From Candidatus Zixiibacteriota bacterium (GTDB lineage: Bacteria > Desulfobacterota > Binatia > UBA9968): a stretch of DNA of 64,000 nt. The stretch covers positions 62,001 through 126,000 of the forward strand of contig DATLYW010000029.1 of NCBI GenBank assembly GCA_035574315.1, read 5' to 3'. How positions within the stretch are numbered: the first letter of the stretch is position 1; the number at the start of each line of letters is the position of its first letter. Of this stretch, positions 2,413-56,715 are shown piece after piece. A program made the translations under genes and the position numbers. The notes beneath the pieces were generated by a model. That model had not been told where the DNA came from, ran no database searches, and worked only from the letters and a program-made list of their open reading frames with translations.

Positions 2413-3588
2413 TCAGCCGGTCGCGGAGGGGCGCGAATCCCCTGCCACGGCTTCGCCGACCGCCGATTCGATCTCGTCCCTCACCGCCGGGTCGCTTTCC
2501 TGCTCCAGCCGCCCGCGCAAGGCGGCCAGCGCCTCCGCTGTGCCGATCCGCCCCAGGGCCCAGGCGGCGTGCCCTCGGACGAGCGGCTCCTGGTCCGCGA
2601 GCGCGCGGCACAGCGCGGGAACTGCTCCAGGATCTTTCGAGTTGCCGAGCGCCACCGCGACGTTGCGCAGCAGCCCGCGGCGCTTGGCCCGCCTTATCGG
2701 GCTGCCGCGGAAACGCTGGCGAAACTCTTCCTCGGTCAGCGAAAGCAGCGAAACCAGATCGGGCGCATGAAGGCCCGGGCGGGGCTCGTAAGCCCCTTCC
2801 CGCGAGGAACGGGCCTTCACGTTGTACGGACAGACCTCCTGGCAGATGTCGCAGCCGAAGACGTGGTTACCGACCAGCGGCCGGAGGTGCCGGGGCATCC
2901 AGCCTTTGAGCTCGATCGTCAGATAAGAGATGCAGCGGCGCGCGTCGAGCACGTAAGGGCCGACGAAGGCGGCGGTGGGGCAGGCCCGAAGACAGAGGTT
3001 GCAGCGTCCGCACCGGTCGGCAATCGGCCGGTCGTAGGCGAGCGGGAGATCGACGAGCAGCTCGCCCAGGAAAAACCACGAGCCGCGGCGCGGCGAGATC
3101 AGATGCGTGTTCTTGCCGATCCAGCCGATGCCCGCCCTTCCCGCCACGTCACGCTCCAGCACGGGCCCCGAATCGACGAACGCCTTGCCCCGAACGCCGG
3201 GCCGAAGCTCGCCGATCCGGTCCAGCAGCTCCGCCAGGCGCTGCTGCATCAGCTCGTGATAGTCGTCGCCCCAAGCGTAACGCGAGATCCAGCCGGTGCC
3301 CCGCGCCGGAGGATCCGGCCTCGGATGCGGCGTGTAGTAGTTCATGCCGACGGAGATGAGCGACACGGCCCAAGGCGCCACCTTGCGCGGGTCGCGCCGC
3401 AGCTCTTCCGTGCGTTCGAGATAGTCCAGCTCCCCGCCGAGCCCTTTTCTCAGCCACTGAGCGAAGAACTCCTCGTGAGGGGGCGGAACGGCCGGAGAGA
3501 TTCCGACGAGATCGAACCCCAGGCGGTAGGCGGCTTCCTTGACGCGCCGGGAGAGTTCTCGTTCTTGTTCGATTCCGGCGAAAGCCAT
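2413..3588 (-). CDS. queG: Epoxyqueuosine reductase QueG
   Basis: QueG is the cobalamin- and 4Fe-4S-dependent enzyme that reduces epoxyqueuosine to queuosine in tRNA. The 391-residue product has the DUF1730-type N-terminal region with PHPRPDPPARGTGWISRYAWG. A double ferredoxin pair follows (CGRCNLCLRACPTAAF and CDICQEVCPYN). Then comes a C-terminal HEAT-like tail (RNVAVALGNSKDPGAVPAL). The ATG at 3588 is chosen. The frame stays open upstream to 3828, but that part reads as low-complexity Arg-rich sequence lying in an interspersed repeat and overlapping the DUF2203 gene. This is the last gene of the minus-strand housekeeping series. Confidence 0.93.
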   Translation of the reverse strand: MAFAGIEQERELSRRVKEAAYRLGFDLVGISPAVPPPHEEFFAQWLRKGLGGELDYLERTEELRRDPRKVAPWAVSLISVGMNYYTPHPRPDPPARGTGWISRYAWGDDYHELMQQRLAELLDRIGELRPGVRGKAFVDSGPVLERDVAGRAGIGWIGKNTHLISPRRGSWFFLGELLVDLPLAYDRPIADRCGRCNLCLRACPTAAFVGPYVLDARRCISYLTIELKGWMPRHLRPLVGNHVFGCDICQEVCPYNVKARSSREGAYEPRPGLHAPDLVSLLSLTEEEFRQRFRGSPIRRAKRRGLLRNVAVALGNSKDPGAVPALCRALADQEPLVRGHAAWALGRIGTAEALAALRGRLEQESDPAVRDEIESAVGEAVAGDSRPSATG

Positions 3589-3617: not shown

Positions 3618-3740
3618 CCTGTTCGACACGTTCAAACCGCTCAAGCGCCGGGCTCCGTTCAGGTCGCTTGGCTCCCGTTGAACAGGCCGTCGCTGCAAGG
3701 AGGGGGTCGCGCTTCCGGGTGTTCCGTCTCCGGCCGCCGG
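3618..3740. repeat. Interspersed intergenic repeat, copy A
   Basis: The spacer between queG and the DUF2203 gene contains the family word CTCCGTTCAGGTCG. Positions 3642-3666 match 19 of 25 bases of copy B (38579-38603). Further GTTCAA and GTTGAAC words and a GTGTTCCGTCTCCGG-type G/C tail follow. The copy is more degraded than B and D and shows no clear hairpin of the B/D type. Confidence 0.5.
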
Positions 3741-3760: not shown

Positions 3761-4210
3761 TCAGTGAAAAGAGGTCTTCCCTCCCGACCCCGCTTCCTCC
3801 GGATCGAGCAGGGGGCGCCGCCCGGCAAACCCGTCCTCGATCCGGTGCCAGTACGCGATGCTCGGCTCGCCGTACTGCCAGCAGAGAAAGACCACGTCGG
3901 TTCCCAGCATGCAGGGAAAATCCAGCAGGCCCTGCTCCACGCCTTTGCACAGGCAGCCGTAACTGTGAATCTCGTCCACGTATCCCTTGACCTGCCCGAT
4001 GATCGCCGCGATCTCCTGGTTTTCGCGCAGGCGGCTCATCAGGTTGGGCGATTCCGGGTCGATGGACTCCTCGCGGATCACCGTTTCGCTCTTCGCCCTC
4101 AAACGCCGGATCGTCTCCAGGATGCGCTCGATGATGGGGCGCAGCGTCGGCAGGAGCGCGTTGGCTTCGTCCACGGTGAAAAGCCTGGGGAAAGGCGACT
4201 GCGAATCCAT
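3761..4210 (-). CDS. DUF2203 family protein
   Basis: The product is 149 residues. It begins with the DUF2203 pattern RLFTVDEANALLPTL, continues as a helical region (RPIIERILETIRRLRAKSE), and ends with the conserved block GCLCKGVEQGLLDFPCMLG.DVVFLCWQYGE, so it matches the family throughout. No biochemical function is established for the family. ATG 4210 is preferred to a TTG at 4222. The gene lies 45 bp downstream of the receiver-LpxC gene in the same direction, so co-transcription is likely. Confidence 0.85.
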   Translation of the reverse strand: MDSQSPFPRLFTVDEANALLPTLRPIIERILETIRRLRAKSETVIREESIDPESPNLMSRLRENQEIAAIIGQVKGYVDEIHSYGCLCKGVEQGLLDFPCMLGTDVVFLCWQYGEPSIAYWHRIEDGFAGRRPLLDPEEAGSGGKTSFH

Positions 4211-17417: not shown

Positions 17418-17686
17418 GGCGCGGGCGGAAGGACGCGAACGTCACCGTTCGCGAAGGAGCTCGAAAATCACCCGAAAAAAGCTCCCGGCTTCTGGCTTCT
17501 CTACGGGACTTTCCTCGAACCGGAAACCGGAAACGATCGTTACCGTCTTTTCCGGCCGCTCGATCGCTTCTCCCCCATCGCGAGGGAAACGCCGTCACGA
17601 ATGCGCGTCACCGGCGGGCCGGCTCCCTGCGGCTCATTCCCGAACCGTTGTCGGCCACTACGAGCGCCCGGCCGTTTCGAGCCGGC
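17418..17686. other. Spacer with degenerate GGAAACCGGAAAC-type repeat words
   Basis: This 269-bp stretch holds no gene that I can support. It contains CCGGAAACCGGAAAC near 17519-17533, the same word family found in the spacers near 30735, 38745, 54822, 56650 and 61095. No promoter or hairpin stands out. Confidence 0.4.
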
Positions 17687-20546: not shown

Positions 20547-21488
20547 ATGGCCACGCTGATCACGGGACTGGGACTGGTCGGAGCTTCCTACGCGAAGCTC
20601 GCCCGCCAGCGCGGGGAGGAAATCGTTTTTTACGACGTCGCGCCGCGCCGCGATTTTCTGGCCCTGAAGCTGGGCTCGGCCGACGCCGTGCCGGTCGTCC
20701 AGCGGGACGTCCGCGATCTCCCGGCGCTTATCGAAGCCATCCAGCGCTACAAGGTCGACAAGGTGATCCACACCGCCGGCCTGATCGGCGGAAAGGTCGC
20801 CCAGCCGATCTATACCGGGATGCAGATCAACGTCATGGGGACGATCAATGTCGCCGAGGCCGTGCGCCTTACGGGTGTGAAGCGCCTCGTGCAGATCAGC
20901 ACGTTCGGCGTCTACGACCGCCGCGGCGGCGAGCCGGCACCGATCGACGAGACTTTTCACCGCGGGCCGGGAGAGGCCTACGGCAATTCGAAGGTGGCCA
21001 AGGAGCTGATGGTCGAAGCCTACCAGCGCCTCTACGGCTTCGAGTTGATCGTTCTGCGGCTGGCGAACGTCTACGGCGTCGGCCACTTCGCCGGCGGCTC
21101 CGGCGGCGGCGAGATGATTCAAAACATGCTGCGGACGGGAATCAAGGGCGGGACGGCGAGGATTCCGCAGGAGCAGGCGCGCGACTTCGAATACATCTAC
21201 GAGAAGGACCTTGGCCGCGCGCTCGACAGGGCGGCTACGGTGCCGCTGCCGCGGCCGGTCACGCTGAACATCGGCACGGGAGTCGTGGTTCCGTTTCGCG
21301 ACCTTGCGGCGCTCGCGGAAAGGCTCCTTCCGGGTCTTCGGGTCGAGCTCCTTCTTGGGACGCCGCCGCGTTCGGCCAGGCAGCCCATGTCGATCGCGAG
21401 AGCGAAAGAGATCCTCGGCTGGGAGCCCGAGTACGACATCGAGCGCGGCTTTCGCGACTACATCGAAGAGCTGAAGGCCCTGGCTTAG
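20547..21488 (+). CDS. NAD-dependent epimerase/dehydratase, extended SDR
   Basis: The 313-residue product has the dinucleotide-binding start TLITGLGLVGASYAK (GxxGxxG), the VIHTAGLIGG strand, and the catalytic tyrosine and lysine in AYGNSKVAK (YxxxK) preceded by ISTFGVYD. The C-terminal NIGTGVVVPFRDLA and GWEPEYDIERGFRDYIEEL are typical of UDP-sugar epimerase relatives. The substrate is not determinable. The start is supported by GGAGG 8 bp upstream. No sugar genes are adjacent. Confidence 0.85.
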   Translation: MATLITGLGLVGASYAKLARQRGEEIVFYDVAPRRDFLALKLGSADAVPVVQRDVRDLPALIEAIQRYKVDKVIHTAGLIGGKVAQPIYTGMQINVMGTINVAEAVRLTGVKRLVQISTFGVYDRRGGEPAPIDETFHRGPGEAYGNSKVAKELMVEAYQRLYGFELIVLRLANVYGVGHFAGGSGGGEMIQNMLRTGIKGGTARIPQEQARDFEYIYEKDLGRALDRAATVPLPRPVTLNIGTGVVVPFRDLAALAERLLPGLRVELLLGTPPRSARQPMSIARAKEILGWEPEYDIERGFRDYIEELKALA

Positions 21489-21509: not shown

Positions 21510-21576
21510 GGCGTCCAGCGTCCAAGGTCCGGCGTCTCGCGTTCGCGCCGCGCGGAGCGCGGTAACGGCTTGAACG
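21510..21576 (-). repeat. Interspersed intergenic repeat, copy D (inverted relative to copy B)
   Basis: Read on the minus strand, these 67 bp align without gaps to copy B at 38593-38659 with 53 identical positions. The hairpin CCGCGC-TCC-GCGCGG keeps all six stem pairs of copy B while its three loop bases all differ. It lies in the 209-bp spacer between the epimerase and comEC. The remainder of that spacer (to about 21660) contains further GTTCCCGG and GAACTCAGAACC-like family words and no gene. Confidence 0.8.
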
Positions 21577-21697
21577 TTTTGAAAGATCGCCCCATGGACG
21601 GTTCCCGGTTTTTGCCCTTCCCGGTCTTGGGTCGTCCTCCGTGGACCTCGAACTCAGAACCCTCCACGAAAGCGACGCCAGAAAGCCGGAAGCGAAA

Positions 21698-26241: not shown

Positions 26242-26625
26242 ATGTTCAGTATCGATAATTTACTGGAACTGGGTGTCTTCAACCAGCTGATCCCGATCTG
26301 GCAGGTGTTTTTTTTCATCGCGAGCCTGCTCCCGTTCCTGCTCTGGAACCGGGTGAAGATCTGTCTCCTGATCACCTACCTCTTTACCTATTACCTCGGG
26401 TTCATGGTGCAATGGGGCGACTATATCGCCACCACCGGCTCCATGCAGCCCTTCGTTCTCTACTCGCTGAGCGGTCTGGCGATCGCGGTCTTCTTCGTCG
26501 CCACGATCTTCACGGAAGAGCCCGAAAAGACCCGAGTCCGATGGATCCGCTTCGGGCGGGCCGACCGCTCCGAGCCGACGGCCGACCCCGTGGAAAACGC
26601 GGTCGACGTCACCGAAAGCCGCTGA
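26242..26625 (+). CDS. Small conserved-looking membrane protein, unknown function
   Basis: The 127-residue product has three predicted membrane helices (about 17-35, 40-56 and 70-88), with several Tyr/Trp residues near the bilayer edges ([16 protein letters not shown]). It ends in a polar cytoplasmic-type tail rich in charged residues. I do not recognise a named family. It runs convergently into uvrB and overlaps the last 17 bp of that gene. The codon-position G+C bias and membrane pattern make it a credible gene. Confidence 0.65.
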
Positions 26626-28675
26626 GCGGCGCCTCTGCCTGTTCCGCCTCGCCCGTCAACGGCGCGCTGCGCACCGACAGCTCCAGCTTTTCCAGCTCCC
26701 GGATCCGATCGCGCAGCTCCGCGGCTTTCTCGAACTCGAGAGCGCGCGCCGCCTGCTGCATCGCCTTTCTGAGCTGCTTGAGCTGCCCGGCGATCTCTCC
26801 GGGCGTATAGGGCGCAACCGGCTCGGCAGCGACAGGAACCTCGACGTAGTCCGCCTCGTAGATCTTGACCAGCGGCGAGCCCAGCGACTTGATGACGGTT
26901 TGCGGGGTGATGCCGTGCTTCCGGTTGAAAGCGGCCTGCACGCGCCGGCGGCGGTTGGTCTCGTCGATCGCGCGCTTCATCGATTCGGTCACTGTGTCGG
27001 CATACAGGATCACGGTTCCATTGACGTTGCGCGCGGCGCGGCCGATCGTCTGGATCAGCGACCGGTCGGAACGCAGGAAGCCTTCCTTGTCCGCGTCCAG
27101 CACCGCCACGAGGGAAACCTCCGGCAGGTCCAGCCCTTCCCTCAGGAGGTTGATCCCCACGAGGACGTCGAACTGCCCCAGGCGCAGCTGCCGGATGATC
27201 TCCACCCGCTCGATCGTCTCGATGTCCGAATGGAGATAGCGGACGCGGACGTTCAGCTCCTGATAGTAGTCGGTCAGGTCCTCCGCCATCCGCTTCGTGA
27301 GCGTGGTGACCAGGACCCGCTCGTTGCGCTCCACCCGCTTGCGGATCTCGTCGAGCAGGTCGTCCACCTGCGAGCGCGCCGGGCGGACCACCACCTCGGG
27401 GTCGGTCAGTCCGGTGGGCCGGATCAGCTGCTCGACCACGGCTCCGCCGCTCTTTTCCAGCTCGTACGGTCCGGGCGTCGCCGAAACGTAGATGGCCTGG
27501 TTCACGCAGGCTTCGAACTCCTCGAAATTCAGCGGCCGGTTGTCGAGCGCCGAAGGAAGGCGAAAGCCGTACTCCACCAGCGTTTCCTTGCGCGACCGGT
27601 CGCCCCGGTACATGCCGCCGATCTGCGGCACGGTGACGTGGCTTTCGTCGATGAACAGCAGAAAGTCGGGAGGGAAATAGTTCAGCAGCGTCGGCGGCGG
27701 CTCGCCGGGCCGGCGCCCGGTGAGATGGCGCGAGTAGTTCTCGATGCCGGGGCAGAAACCCATCTCCTCGAGCAGCTCGAGGTCGTAGAGCGTGCGCTGC
27801 TCCAGCCGCTGCGCTTCCAGCAGCTTGCCTTCGCCGCGGAGCTCCGCCAGCCGCTCGCGCAGCTCCGCGCGGATTCCGGCGATCGCCTCCTTCATCCGCT
27901 CGGCGGTGGTGACGTAGTGGCTCGCCGGATAGATCGCCGCCTTGTCGACGCGTCGCTGGACCCTGCCGCGGATCGGATCGATCTCGTAGATCGCCTCGAT
28001 CATGTCGTCGAAAAATTCGATGCGCAGCGCCGAGACGTCCTCGTAGGCCGGGAAGATCTCGACCACGTCGCCGCGCGCCCGGAAGGTTCCCCGGTGAAAG
28101 TCGGCGTCGTTCCGCTGGTACTGGATGTCGACGAGCTTTCGCAGAACGGCGTCCCGCTCGATCCGGTTGCCCTCCTCCAGGTAGACCATCAGGTCGAAGT
28201 AGGCCTCCGGCGAGCCCAGGCCGTAGATGCAGGAGACGCTCGCCACGATGACGGTGTCCCGGCGCTCGAGCAGCGCTTTGGTGGCGGAATGGCGCAGCTT
28301 GTCGATCTCGTCGTTGATCGACGCGTCCTTCTCGATGTAGGTGTCGGTCGACGGGACGTACGCTTCCGGCTGGTAGTAATCGTAGTAGCTGACGAAGTAC
28401 CGGACCGCGTTCTCGGGGAACAGCTCGCGGAACTCGTTGTAGAGCTGCGCCGCCAGGGTTTTGTTCGGCGCCAGCACGAGGGTGGGCCGGTTCGCCGCGG
28501 CGATCACGTTCGCCATCGTGAACGTCTTTCCGGACCCCGTCACGCCGAGCAGCACCTGGTGCCGCTTCCCGCGCCGGAGCCCTTCGACCAGCTTTGCGAT
28601 GGCGGCGGGCTGATCGCCTTGAGGCTTGAACTGCGAGACAAGCCGAAAGGGCCGCGCCTCCATATTCCGGGACAT
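26609..28675 (-). CDS. uvrB: Excinuclease ABC subunit B
   Basis: UvrB is the damage-verifying helicase-like subunit of nucleotide excision repair. The 688-residue product has Walker [14 protein letters not shown], the beta-hairpin region [25 protein letters not shown]-type box [11 protein letters not shown], helicase motif [14 protein letters not shown] and the C-terminal UVR motif that binds UvrC ([19 protein letters not shown]). ATG 28675 is used; a TTG one codon upstream is possible. Confidence 0.97.
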
Positions 28676-28704: not shown

Positions 28705-28910
28705 TTAAAAGAAGGACCGGAGACCGGGCCCGGAGACCGGAAAACGGTCGTTCAGGCCGTCCAACGGCTGCGCTCCGTTCAGGCCGTGCTGCGGTTTGCG
28801 GCACGAGCCGCGAGGCGGCACGAAAAGTGCCCGGAAACCCGGAGCTGGAAACCGAATGCGCGGAGCGCGGCGAGAAAACGCTGGACGTCGGGTCCGGGCG
28901 CAGGATGCGT
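28705..28910. repeat. Interspersed intergenic repeat, copy C
   Basis: Positions 28758-28786 match 24 of 29 bases of copy B (38575-38603), including the exact core GCTCCGTTCA. A different inverted repeat (GCGGC-ACGA-GCCGC) follows, and GGAGACCGG/GGAAACCCGG words lie on both sides. It occupies the spacer between uvrB and the DUF1232 gene. Confidence 0.6.
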
Positions 28911-28944: not shown

Positions 28945-29325
28945 ATGCGATTCCTCGAGAGGCTCCGGACCGCGGCGCGCGGGCTTCGGCGCGAGACCAC
29001 GGCGCTCTATTTCGTCGCGCGGGATCCCCGCGTGCCGTGGCACGCCCGGATTTTCATCCTTTGTGTCGTCGGTTACGCGCTGAGCCCGCTCGACCTGATT
29101 CCCGACACGATCCCGATTCTGGGCTACCTGGACGACCTGATCCTGGTGCCCCTGGGAGTCTACGTTGCCCTGAAGATGGTGCCCGAGGCGGTGCTTCGGG
29201 AATGCCGCGAACGGGCGCTCGCGGGGCCGGCACCCGCTCCCAGCCGGCTGGCCGCCGCCGTCGTCGTGTTGCTCTGGATTGCCGCCGCGGCCGCGGTGGT
29301 GGGCTACTTCCTGTCGCTCCCCTGA
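28945..29325 (+). CDS. YkvA/DUF1232 family membrane protein
   Basis: The 126-residue product contains the DUF1232 hallmark YALSPLDLIPDTIPILGYLDD, preceded by an amphipathic helix (ARIFILCVVG) and followed by LGVYVALKMVP and a C-terminal membrane helix (AAAVVVLLWIAAAAAVVGYF). The function of the family is unknown. The ATG at 28945 has GGGAGG 9 bp upstream. The frame is open upstream to 28786, but that part lies in the interspersed repeat and has no family similarity. Confidence 0.85.
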   Translation: MRFLERLRTAARGLRRETTALYFVARDPRVPWHARIFILCVVGYALSPLDLIPDTIPILGYLDDLILVPLGVYVALKMVPEAVLRECRERALAGPAPAPSRLAAAVVVLLWIAAAAAVVGYFLSLP

Positions 29326-29627: not shown

Positions 29628-30563
29628 CTAATCGATCATGTGCGTCGTCGCCCGCAGGTGCTTGTCGACCGTAGTATAGCCCTTCCACTGGTCGACGAGC
29701 CAGTAGCGGATGCCGAACTCGAAGCGCAGCTCCTTCATCTCGCGGTCGTAGGGATTGAAATGCTGGTGGTGCATCATTCCCGGGGGGACGTGAACCGCAT
29801 CGCCCTGGTTCCAGTCGTAGCGCTTGCCGCCGATCTCCGAGTAGCCGTCGCCTTCGAGGGCGTAGAGGTACGCTTCGGGGTGGGCGTGGCTGTGGCTCTT
29901 CGTGTGCGGGAGGTCGACGAAGATCGAGCTGATCGCGACGCCGGTGGCTTTGAACCCGTTCTGCTTCCCGCTGCGGCCCATGAGGAAATAGGTGGCGCCG
30001 TGCTTGGACTCGTCCGATTTCTCCTGCTGGTGCTGGTGCATCGAAATCCGCCGGCCGTCCTCGGGCCAGTACTGGGACTCCTCCGGGGGAAACTGGGCCA
30101 GGAGCTTCGGATCGTTCTCGCCGCACGGCTCGAGCTGCTCCATCTTTCCCATGTAGACGCTGGCTTCCAGGTGCCAGGCCAGGCCCGAGAGATAGCCGAC
30201 GGGGGTCTTTCCGGTGTTGAACAGCTGGTGCACGGAGCGGTAGGGAACGTGGAAGATGGTCCCGGGAAAGAAATCGTAGCGCTTCCCGTCGAGGATCATG
30301 AATCCTTCCCCGCTCTCGATGTAAATCGCCTCTTCGCCGTGCAGGTGCTTGCCGGTGTGCCAGCCTGCGGGGATCTCGGCCCGCATGAGGCAGCTCCCCC
30401 CGGTGGGAAAGCCCGTCTCCGGGGCGATCATGAGCGCTGCCCGGTAGTCCTGCACGGTCCGCACCCACTTCAGATCCTTCGCCCGGGCGACCCGCGGCGC
30501 CTCGTTCACGGTTGCTTCTATTTTCTTCGATCGCTCGAGCCACTCGCTGTAGAAATCGGCCAT
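29628..30563 (-). CDS. Two-domain cupin protein (bicupin), possible ring-cleaving dioxygenase relative
   Basis: The 311-residue product has two cupin barrels. The first (about 75-145) has GWHTGKHLHGEEAIYIESGEG with a plausible metal-binding HxH...E set. The second (about 215-290) has SHSHAHPEAYLYALEGDGYSEIGG and GDAVHVPPGMMHHQHFN, also with histidines placed to bind metal. Gentisate 1,2-dioxygenase-like proteins share this architecture, but substrate identity cannot be read. ATG 30563 (MADFYSEW) follows GGAGGGA, so it is preferred to an upstream start at 30611. Confidence 0.8.
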   Translation of the reverse strand: MADFYSEWLERSKKIEATVNEAPRVARAKDLKWVRTVQDYRAALMIAPETGFPTGGSCLMRAEIPAGWHTGKHLHGEEAIYIESGEGFMILDGKRYDFFPGTIFHVPYRSVHQLFNTGKTPVGYLSGLAWHLEASVYMGKMEQLEPCGENDPKLLAQFPPEESQYWPEDGRRISMHQHQQEKSDESKHGATYFLMGRSGKQNGFKATGVAISSIFVDLPHTKSHSHAHPEAYLYALEGDGYSEIGGKRYDWNQGDAVHVPPGMMHHQHFNPYDREMKELRFEFGIRYWLVDQWKGYTTVDKHLRATTHMID

Positions 30564-30587: not shown

Positions 30588-30645
30588 GTTCAAGGGTTTA
30601 CGGCAGTTCAAGGGTTCAAGAGTTCAAGAGTTCAAGGGTTCAAGG
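30588..30645. repeat. Tandem GTTCAAGR octamer repeat
   Basis: Five direct copies of an 8-bp unit GTTCAAG(A/G) run from 30606 to 30645 with no spacing, and a sixth isolated copy lies at 30588-30595. The same GTTCAAG word occurs inside repeat copies B and D (CGTTCAAGCCG). Confidence 0.85.
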
Positions 30646-38453: not shown

Positions 38454-38895
38454 AATGCAACCTCCGTTTCGCGCGTGCTCGCCGTCGGCGAAACCCGCCG
38501 CCGCATTGCGAGCGAGGCCGCGCGTAGCCGGGCATCGTATCGCGGCCAAAAAGTCGCTTCGCTCCCGCTCGAACCGTTCAATCGCTTCGCTCCGTTCAAG
38601 CCGTTGCCGCGCAGAGCGCGGCAGAAACGGAAGTCTCCGGACCTCGGACCCGGGACGCCGAGCGGCCAGATGCGCGAGATCTTGCAATCCGCGATTTGCA
38701 AAACTTTTGAACGCCCGCCGCTTCCCGCCGGCTGCCACGGAAATCCGCGGAAACCGGAACCCGGGAACTATCATATGAATTTGACGTATCGCAGCCGGCG
38801 CTGCAAGGAGGACTTCGTTTGACGCCGTTTCACCCGATGGTACACAATACGCGCGTTTGCAAGCGGGCGATGACTCGCGCGCTGGAGGGCAAGGA
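38454..38895. other. 442-bp spacer dominated by repeat copy B
   Basis: The divergent spacer between the NodI-like gene (minus) and pal (plus) holds repeat copy B (about 38560-38775) and no gene that I can support. The remaining bases on the pal side include TACACAATAC (38841-38850), a possible A+T-rich promoter element, but no good -35 partner is seen. Confidence 0.45.
38560..38775 (+). repeat. Interspersed intergenic repeat, copy B (most complete)
   Basis: The copy has several modules in order. A double CGTTCAA segment (38575-38603) is shared with copies A and C. The hairpin GCCGCGC-AGA-GCGCGGC lies at 38605-38622. The GGACCTCGGACCCGGGACGCC segment completes the 67 bp aligned to copy D. Then come CGATTTGCAAAACT (shared with E) and finally GGAAACCGGAACCCGGGAAC. 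No coding potential and no terminal direct repeats are seen. Confidence 0.8.
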
Positions 38896-56639: not shown

Positions 56640-56715
56640 TCCTTTTTATTTTCCGGTTTCCGGTTTTCCTGCCTTCCCGTTGAACTCTGGATAATGCGCC
56701 GGCACTTTTCGTTTC
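56640..56715. repeat. Degenerate CCGGTTTCCGG / GTTGAAC spacer words
   Basis: TTTCCGGTTTCCGGTTTTCC followed by CCGTTGAACTCTGG lies between the ThDP enzyme and the GST. These are the same word families as in repeat copies B and E and in the spacers at 17519 and 61080. No hairpin module is present. Confidence 0.4.

Follow-up and report, generated by a model that had tools for sequence, protein, structure and literature searches.

REP-like repeats are common, and their origin and purpose are disputed. The related REPINs and MITEs are short, non-coding, inverted and dispersed, and relatives hold empty sites where a copy is missing. The REP and BIME sequences of the GTAG and CGTC super-families are described as intergenic and palindromic, often in pairs of opposite orientation and in many copies per genome (PMC3733652; PMC12306157). 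According to the first of these accounts, REPs occupy spacers of unidirectional or convergent genes, adjoining the upstream gene at its 3' end (PMC3733652), and according to the second, which cites Liang et al. 2015, REPs less than 16 nt from a stop codon lower translation (PMC12306157).

The elements analysed here, which are built from tandem nonamers of the form GTTCMA-NNN, share with REPs and BIMEs their intergenic and palindromic nature, the frequent opposite-oriented pairing and the high copy number, and also a position soon after the upstream stop codon and the avoidance of divergent spacers. However, their arms are tandem arrays of nonamers, whereas a REP is a single 20-40 bp palindrome, and, unlike with REPs mobilised by a RAYT, no repeat-flanked Y1 transposase was found in the source genome. 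The REP tags GTAG and CGTC were each seen in 4 of 59 cases within 8 nt outside either end, with backgrounds of 3.4% and 11.2%, respectively, and neither tag stands clearly above its background. The elements also resemble the Xanthomonas GGGAATC and Nostoc GGGGA(T/C)T heptamers, described as short-period tandem repeats with a preference for four units, near stop codons and with few divergent cases (PMC4692102), yet differ from them in having a period of 9, a fixed hexamer followed by three free bases, a composition that is not G-rich, and inverted arms. With the TAACTGA repeats of Beggiatoaceae, Cyanobacteria and Bacteroidetes they have in common intergenic short tandem units in dozens of sets, but the published description gives those repeats a period of 7, a place just upstream of start codons and no inverted pairs (PMC4679880).

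All the features named above for REPINs and MITEs are found in the nonamer elements as well, although for these no linked transposase was found in the source genome and no target-site duplication was visible at the one clean empty site, and their arms are microsatellite-like. No account of GTTCMA nonamer elements was found in the open-licence literature, and neither the window nor 12 element loci gave a match in Rfam at the gathering score. The best reading is that the architecture (i.e., inverted arrays of nonamers in two unit types) is new and the REP-like position already known. On present evidence, the elements would work like REPs without being filed as REPs.

The window, i.e., the whole 64-kb stretch of DNA that was analysed (G000:C29:62001-126000), comes from a source genome of 4.26 Mb in 53 contigs. 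An earlier note on it had described a repeat family with a conserved hairpin, on the basis of copy B (38593-38659) and copy D (21510-21576, opposite strand). These copies are indeed identical at 53 of 67 positions (79%) without gaps, and the stem CCGCGC/GCGCGG is unbroken in both, with the loop AGA in copy B (38607-38621) and TCC in copy D. The selection on the stem that had been read from this comparison is not borne out: one pair is changed on both sides, and the covariation score, counted over 12 hand-chosen copies of which one is poorly aligned, was equalled in 353 of 500 shuffles. Pieces of the repeat had also been reported near 17519, 56650 and 61095. At the former two sites there are different short-period words, namely the heptamers CGGAAAC / CGGTTTC, and at the latter only two isolated TTGAAC units (61124 and 61147); none of the three is a copy of the 67-mer. 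The features of the window are presented in Table 1. Copy B is flanked by divergent genes, for an ABC transporter on the minus strand and an OmpA-domain protein on the plus strand; copy D, past the stop codon of the epimerase gene, faces a ComEC-like gene. Besides the two matches listed in the table, the profile described below matches the window at 21516-21583 and 38569-38653, which makes four matches.

Table 1. Coordinates of repeat features in the window.
Feature	Position	Strand	Remark
Leading phrase GTCGCTTCGCTCC of copy B	38553..38565	+	Same phrase ahead of many copies
Nonamer array of copy B, GTTCAATCG-CTTCGCTCC-GTTCAAGCC, middle unit diverged	38576..38602	+	Core of the genome-wide profile
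GC hairpin of copy B, CCGCGC-AGA-GCGCGG	38607..38621	+	Variable part; covariation support absent
Single opposite-strand TTGAAC unit, possible remnant of a second arm	38707..38712	-	
Copy D, in a convergent spacer, ~21 nt past the stop of epimerase gene 20547-21488	21510..21576	-	
Profile match between genes 2413-3588 (-) and 3761-4210 (-)	3630..3732	+	
Profile match between genes 26609-28663 (-) and 28945-29325 (+)	28750..28802	+	
Six-unit GTTCAA array with a spacing of mostly 8 bp, close beside gene 29628-30563 (-)	30588..30643	+	

A search for further copies returned many more, both in the source genome and in its relatives. BLAST with window positions 38560-38775 found 40 places in the genome at E<=0.001, and a profile grown from copy B yielded 63 matches at E<1e-3 in 777 kb from six contigs, against 0 in the reversed sample. 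This sample favoured contigs with earlier matches (C29, C28, C25, C33 and C47), and the one earlier match of C12 lies outside the 100 kb taken from that contig. Matches are present in 47 of the 255 spacers of at least 100 bp in the sample. The claim that the repeats always lie between genes holds for 58 of the 63 matches, which are outside predicted genes, but not for the remaining 5; genes were predicted with a home-made caller here and throughout the placement counts. Nearly all of the 11-mers most enriched in the sample come from these match-bearing spacers, which show a strong periodicity of 7, 8 and 9 bp and their multiples, far exceeding that of shuffled sequence. Arrays in the source genome are mostly single-armed and decayed, followed by GC fillers and heptamer words, and inverted (i.e., two-armed) elements are rare in it.

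What is conserved across the family is the nonamer GTTCMA-NNN and not the GC hairpin, which is one among many GC-rich fillers 3' of the array. Hence, while the repeat is interspersed, intergenic and REP-like, with the potential to form a hairpin, as the earlier note had proposed, the 67-mer with its GC stem is a local variant of a 9-bp GTTCMA-NNN array. GTTCAA has a density of 3.0 per kb in intergenic sequence against 0.37 per kb in coding sequence, and neighbouring units are spaced 8, 9 or 18 bp. The GTTCAA-type unit reads GTTCAA-R-H-C, with a purine (A or G) opening the slot in 229 of 233 tandem units. Tandem arrays are also formed by a second type of unit, GTTCCA. The sequence GTTCAARYC equals the tRNA T-loop motif; a T-loop origin was rejected because GTTCCA units break the motif at the purine position. 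LexA direct repeats, which have a spacing of 11, were likewise rejected, given the 9-bp period does not fit.

The arrays are carried by a family of uncultured soil and groundwater bacteria, with dozens of elements per genome. Within the class, the only group searched with this pattern, three tandem GTTCAA-NNN units (GTTCAANNNGTTCAANNNGTTCAA) are present in 24 of the 25 family genomes, G016 being the exception, and in 0 of the 123 genomes from outside the family, of which 10 belong to the same order. A control pattern read backward had no match in the family and a single match across all 148 genomes. Tandem arrays of GTTCCA were found in 11 of the 25 family genomes and in 0 of the 123 others. 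The preferred unit varies by genome, with GTTCAA/GTTCCA matches of 121/3 in G521, 12/44 in G020 and 57/54 in G520. As far as tested, the element is confined to one bacterial family, and the nonamer array is thus a sequence marker for it.

The exact phrase was found in 59 stretches of GTDB r220 contigs, in 13 record sets, and in 1 of the 395 genomes of a phylum sample, namely the source genome itself. The matching GTDB records are titled 'Deltaproteobacteria bacterium' or 'Candidatus Binatia bacterium', bar one titled Syntrophobacter sp. SbD2 (L123, CAMDBU010000142.1). This title looks wrong: by placement and by its flanking proteins, which match the loci of G015 and G008 with up to 84% and 95% identity, respectively, the record belongs to the same family. 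A wide taxonomic spread was rejected accordingly, the one oddly titled record falling within the family.

In relatives, the intact form consists of a forward nonamer arm, a variable middle and a reverse arm, with modally four nonamers per arm. Loci L116-L174 were chosen via the phrase TTCAANCGCTNCGCTCCGTTCAA and loci L198-L267 via GTTCAA arrays, and loci L311-L330, many of which bear arrays on both strands, were hand-picked from a list of GTTCCA places. Among 134 distinct elements with at least 3 GTTCAA units, 51 are forward-then-reverse, 60 run in a single direction, 9 have the reverse order and 14 are mixed; exactly four units is the commonest number in the forward arm of the 51 (31 elements). 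When the unit was loosened to GTTC[AC]A and further loci were added, 59 inverted elements were obtained, 45 of type A (GTTCAA) and 14 of type C (GTTCCA). Element length ranges from 65 to 234 bp, with a median of 106 for GTTCAA and 92 for GTTCCA.

The two arms agree in type in all but one of the 59 inverted elements (44 A/A, 14 C/C and 1 discordant). Of the 14 C/C elements, 9 were selected for C arrays on both strands, and the other 5, not so selected, are all concordant. Compensation between arms was not seen, since single-base variants within one arm are unmatched in the opposite arm. Nor are the slots of left and right arms more alike than those of shuffled partners (0.654 against 0.629, sd 0.015). 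Precise pairing is therefore not under visible selection: arm types agree and variants are unmatched, which means the whole element is of one type and individual pairs are not compensated. The elements fold far better than dinucleotide shuffles, with a mean z of -5.7 over 44 elements of type A and -7.0 over 14 of type C; one further element, which was long or contained N, is excluded. A GC-rich hairpin filler (CTCCCCCGCG..CGCGGGGGAG) recurs between the arms in several genomes (L117, L133, L150, L159, L160, L161 and L162), as though the middle had received, or been exchanged for, a second repeat.

Both neighbouring genes were called for 46 inverted elements. The pair is tandem in 39 cases, convergent in 6 and divergent in 1; of the other inverted elements, 9 are at the edge of a locus and 4 scored as intragenic. 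For comparison, all spacers of 20 bp or more called in a smaller set of loci comprise 240 tandem, 32 convergent and 41 divergent ones. In tandem pairs, the median distance from the stop codon to the element is 8.5 nt (A type) and 12 nt (C type), the element starting at most 15 nt past the stop in 21 of 28 GTTCAA cases and 9 of 11 GTTCCA cases, and the median distance from the element's end to the next start is 25.5 nt and 20 nt, respectively. Were elements placed at random with 20 nt reserved for the ribosome site, 19.8 of 33 would fall no more than 15 nt past the stop; the actual number is 23 (P 0.033). Without this reserve, the expected value is 13.5 of 33. The closeness to the stop codon is hence partly due to the element filling a short operon gap.

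At a given spacer, the array persists across species and genera with its middle exchanged (L122/L144, L145/L150, L096/L105/L123 and L104/L125), as is also the case across three species of genus g9. At such orthologous array-bearing sites, neighbouring proteins are mostly 75-94% identical across species and genera. One G521 element is missing in G015, where the spacer is ~45 bp. At a second G521 site, G520 has a GTTCCA-type element, G020 a short array-less spacer and G008 unrelated sequence, and at a third there is a GTTCCA-type element in G520 and none in G008 and G020. Between same-genome copies at unrelated places (L127/L139, L163/L168 and L165/L166), the alignment stops at the outer units or a few bases past them. 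Together, the empty sites and the element-only alignments indicate the element disperses, by transposition or by copying between sites. The MITE-like character proposed earlier is thus backed by discrete ends, by dispersed copies with unrelated flanks and by empty sites, but no target-site duplication is visible at the one clean empty site, where the flanks are ~80-84% identical. A phage or plasmid origin was rejected, as searches gave no match.

The reading to which we incline, with about even confidence, is that of a dispersed, non-coding, palindromic, REP-like intercistronic mRNA hairpin. An intact element of about four GTTCMA-R-H-C nonamers, a variable middle and about four nonamers in reverse would be co-transcribed with the preceding gene and form a long imperfect hairpin soon after the stop codon. 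This hairpin probably acts at the RNA level, as REPs do, by shielding the 3' end of the upstream cistron or by slowing ribosomes at the stop, and would thereby set the expression ratio of operon neighbours. The element would spread without encoding a protein, and most copies in the source genome would have lost one arm and become embedded in heptamer-rich mosaics. Its restriction to the family in the sets searched, the spacing and intergenic excess of the units, the placement, the folding excess, the agreement of arm types, the dispersal and the places published for REPs speak for this reading. Against it stand the rarity of inverted elements in the source genome, the pairing that is not visibly selected, the share of the closeness to stop codons that random placement with a ribosome-site reserve already predicts, and copy B itself, which lies between divergent genes, where a role at an mRNA 3' end does not fit. 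Strong hairpins 3' of genes might also suggest intrinsic transcription terminators, which we regard as very improbable, given a T-tract 3' of the hairpin is absent (3 of 39 cases have TTTT in the next 12 nt, the background being 3.4%) and most elements lie inside same-direction gene pairs.

The case for neutral DNA, either mobile or made by slippage, is stronger, though we still find it somewhat unlikely. Here, a MITE- or REP-like parasite without host function would be tolerated where harmless, in operon gaps past the stop with the ribosome site spared. Empty sites and dispersed copies agree with it, as do the replaced middles at orthologous sites, the single-arm decay in the source genome and the short-period words of 7-9 bp, which fit slippage; however, the element is present in 24 of 25 genomes, arrays persist at orthologous sites and the hexamer stays fixed next to slots that drift, which suggests constraint or ongoing copying. 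That fixed hexamer, with three varying slot bases and a spacing of 8 or 9, would suit an operator in which GTTCMA every nine bases is bound in tandem by a nucleoid or regulatory protein of the family, the hairpin being a by-product. Such an operator would also agree with the frequent single-arm arrays (60 of 134 elements) and with slots that show no covariation from one arm to the other, and A- and C-type arrays could mirror factors of differing specificity. Nevertheless, operators are not expected to avoid divergent (i.e., promoter) spacers (1 of 46) or to hug stop codons, and we deem this explanation unlikely.

Returning to the mRNA hairpin, a bolder and distinctly improbable version of a regulatory role is a family-specific code, in which a dedicated factor, with A-reading and C-reading versions, would recognise the arrays in RNA or DNA form. 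One or both inverted 4+4 sets per genome, at the stop codons of operon genes, would then constitute a new genome-wide layer of intercistronic control. Whatever the function, these elements have a REP-like position at stop codons but another architecture, belong to a lineage distant from the enterics and show no visible link to a RAYT. They allow the question of which trait defines such elements (position, hairpin or transposase) to be tested independently.

The earlier note had seen no transposase. Three Y1_Tnp fragments do exist in the source genome, all cut off by contig ends (L191, L192 and L193, on contigs C44, C5 and C7), but no GTTCAA array adjoins the part of them that is present, and a RAYT linkage in the source genome was rejected for this reason. 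Words of the form ACCTGACCCCA adjoin the truncated Y1_Tnp genes, and together they are probably a separate repeated IS200/RAYT-like element.

The density of profile matches is very uneven, with none in C12:1-100000 and C33:1-70000 and many on C28 and C29, which may reflect a regional bias along the chromosome. Spacers of the source genome also carry the heptamers GTTCGAR, GGTCYYC, CGGAAAC and CGCAATC, as well as CGCAAAGACGCAAAG phrases, in recurring order and adjoining nonamers. Such mosaics are found at L034 (C29:58000-59500), at L035 and in the window at 17519-17534 and 56650-56666, and several of these words look like words known from other phyla.
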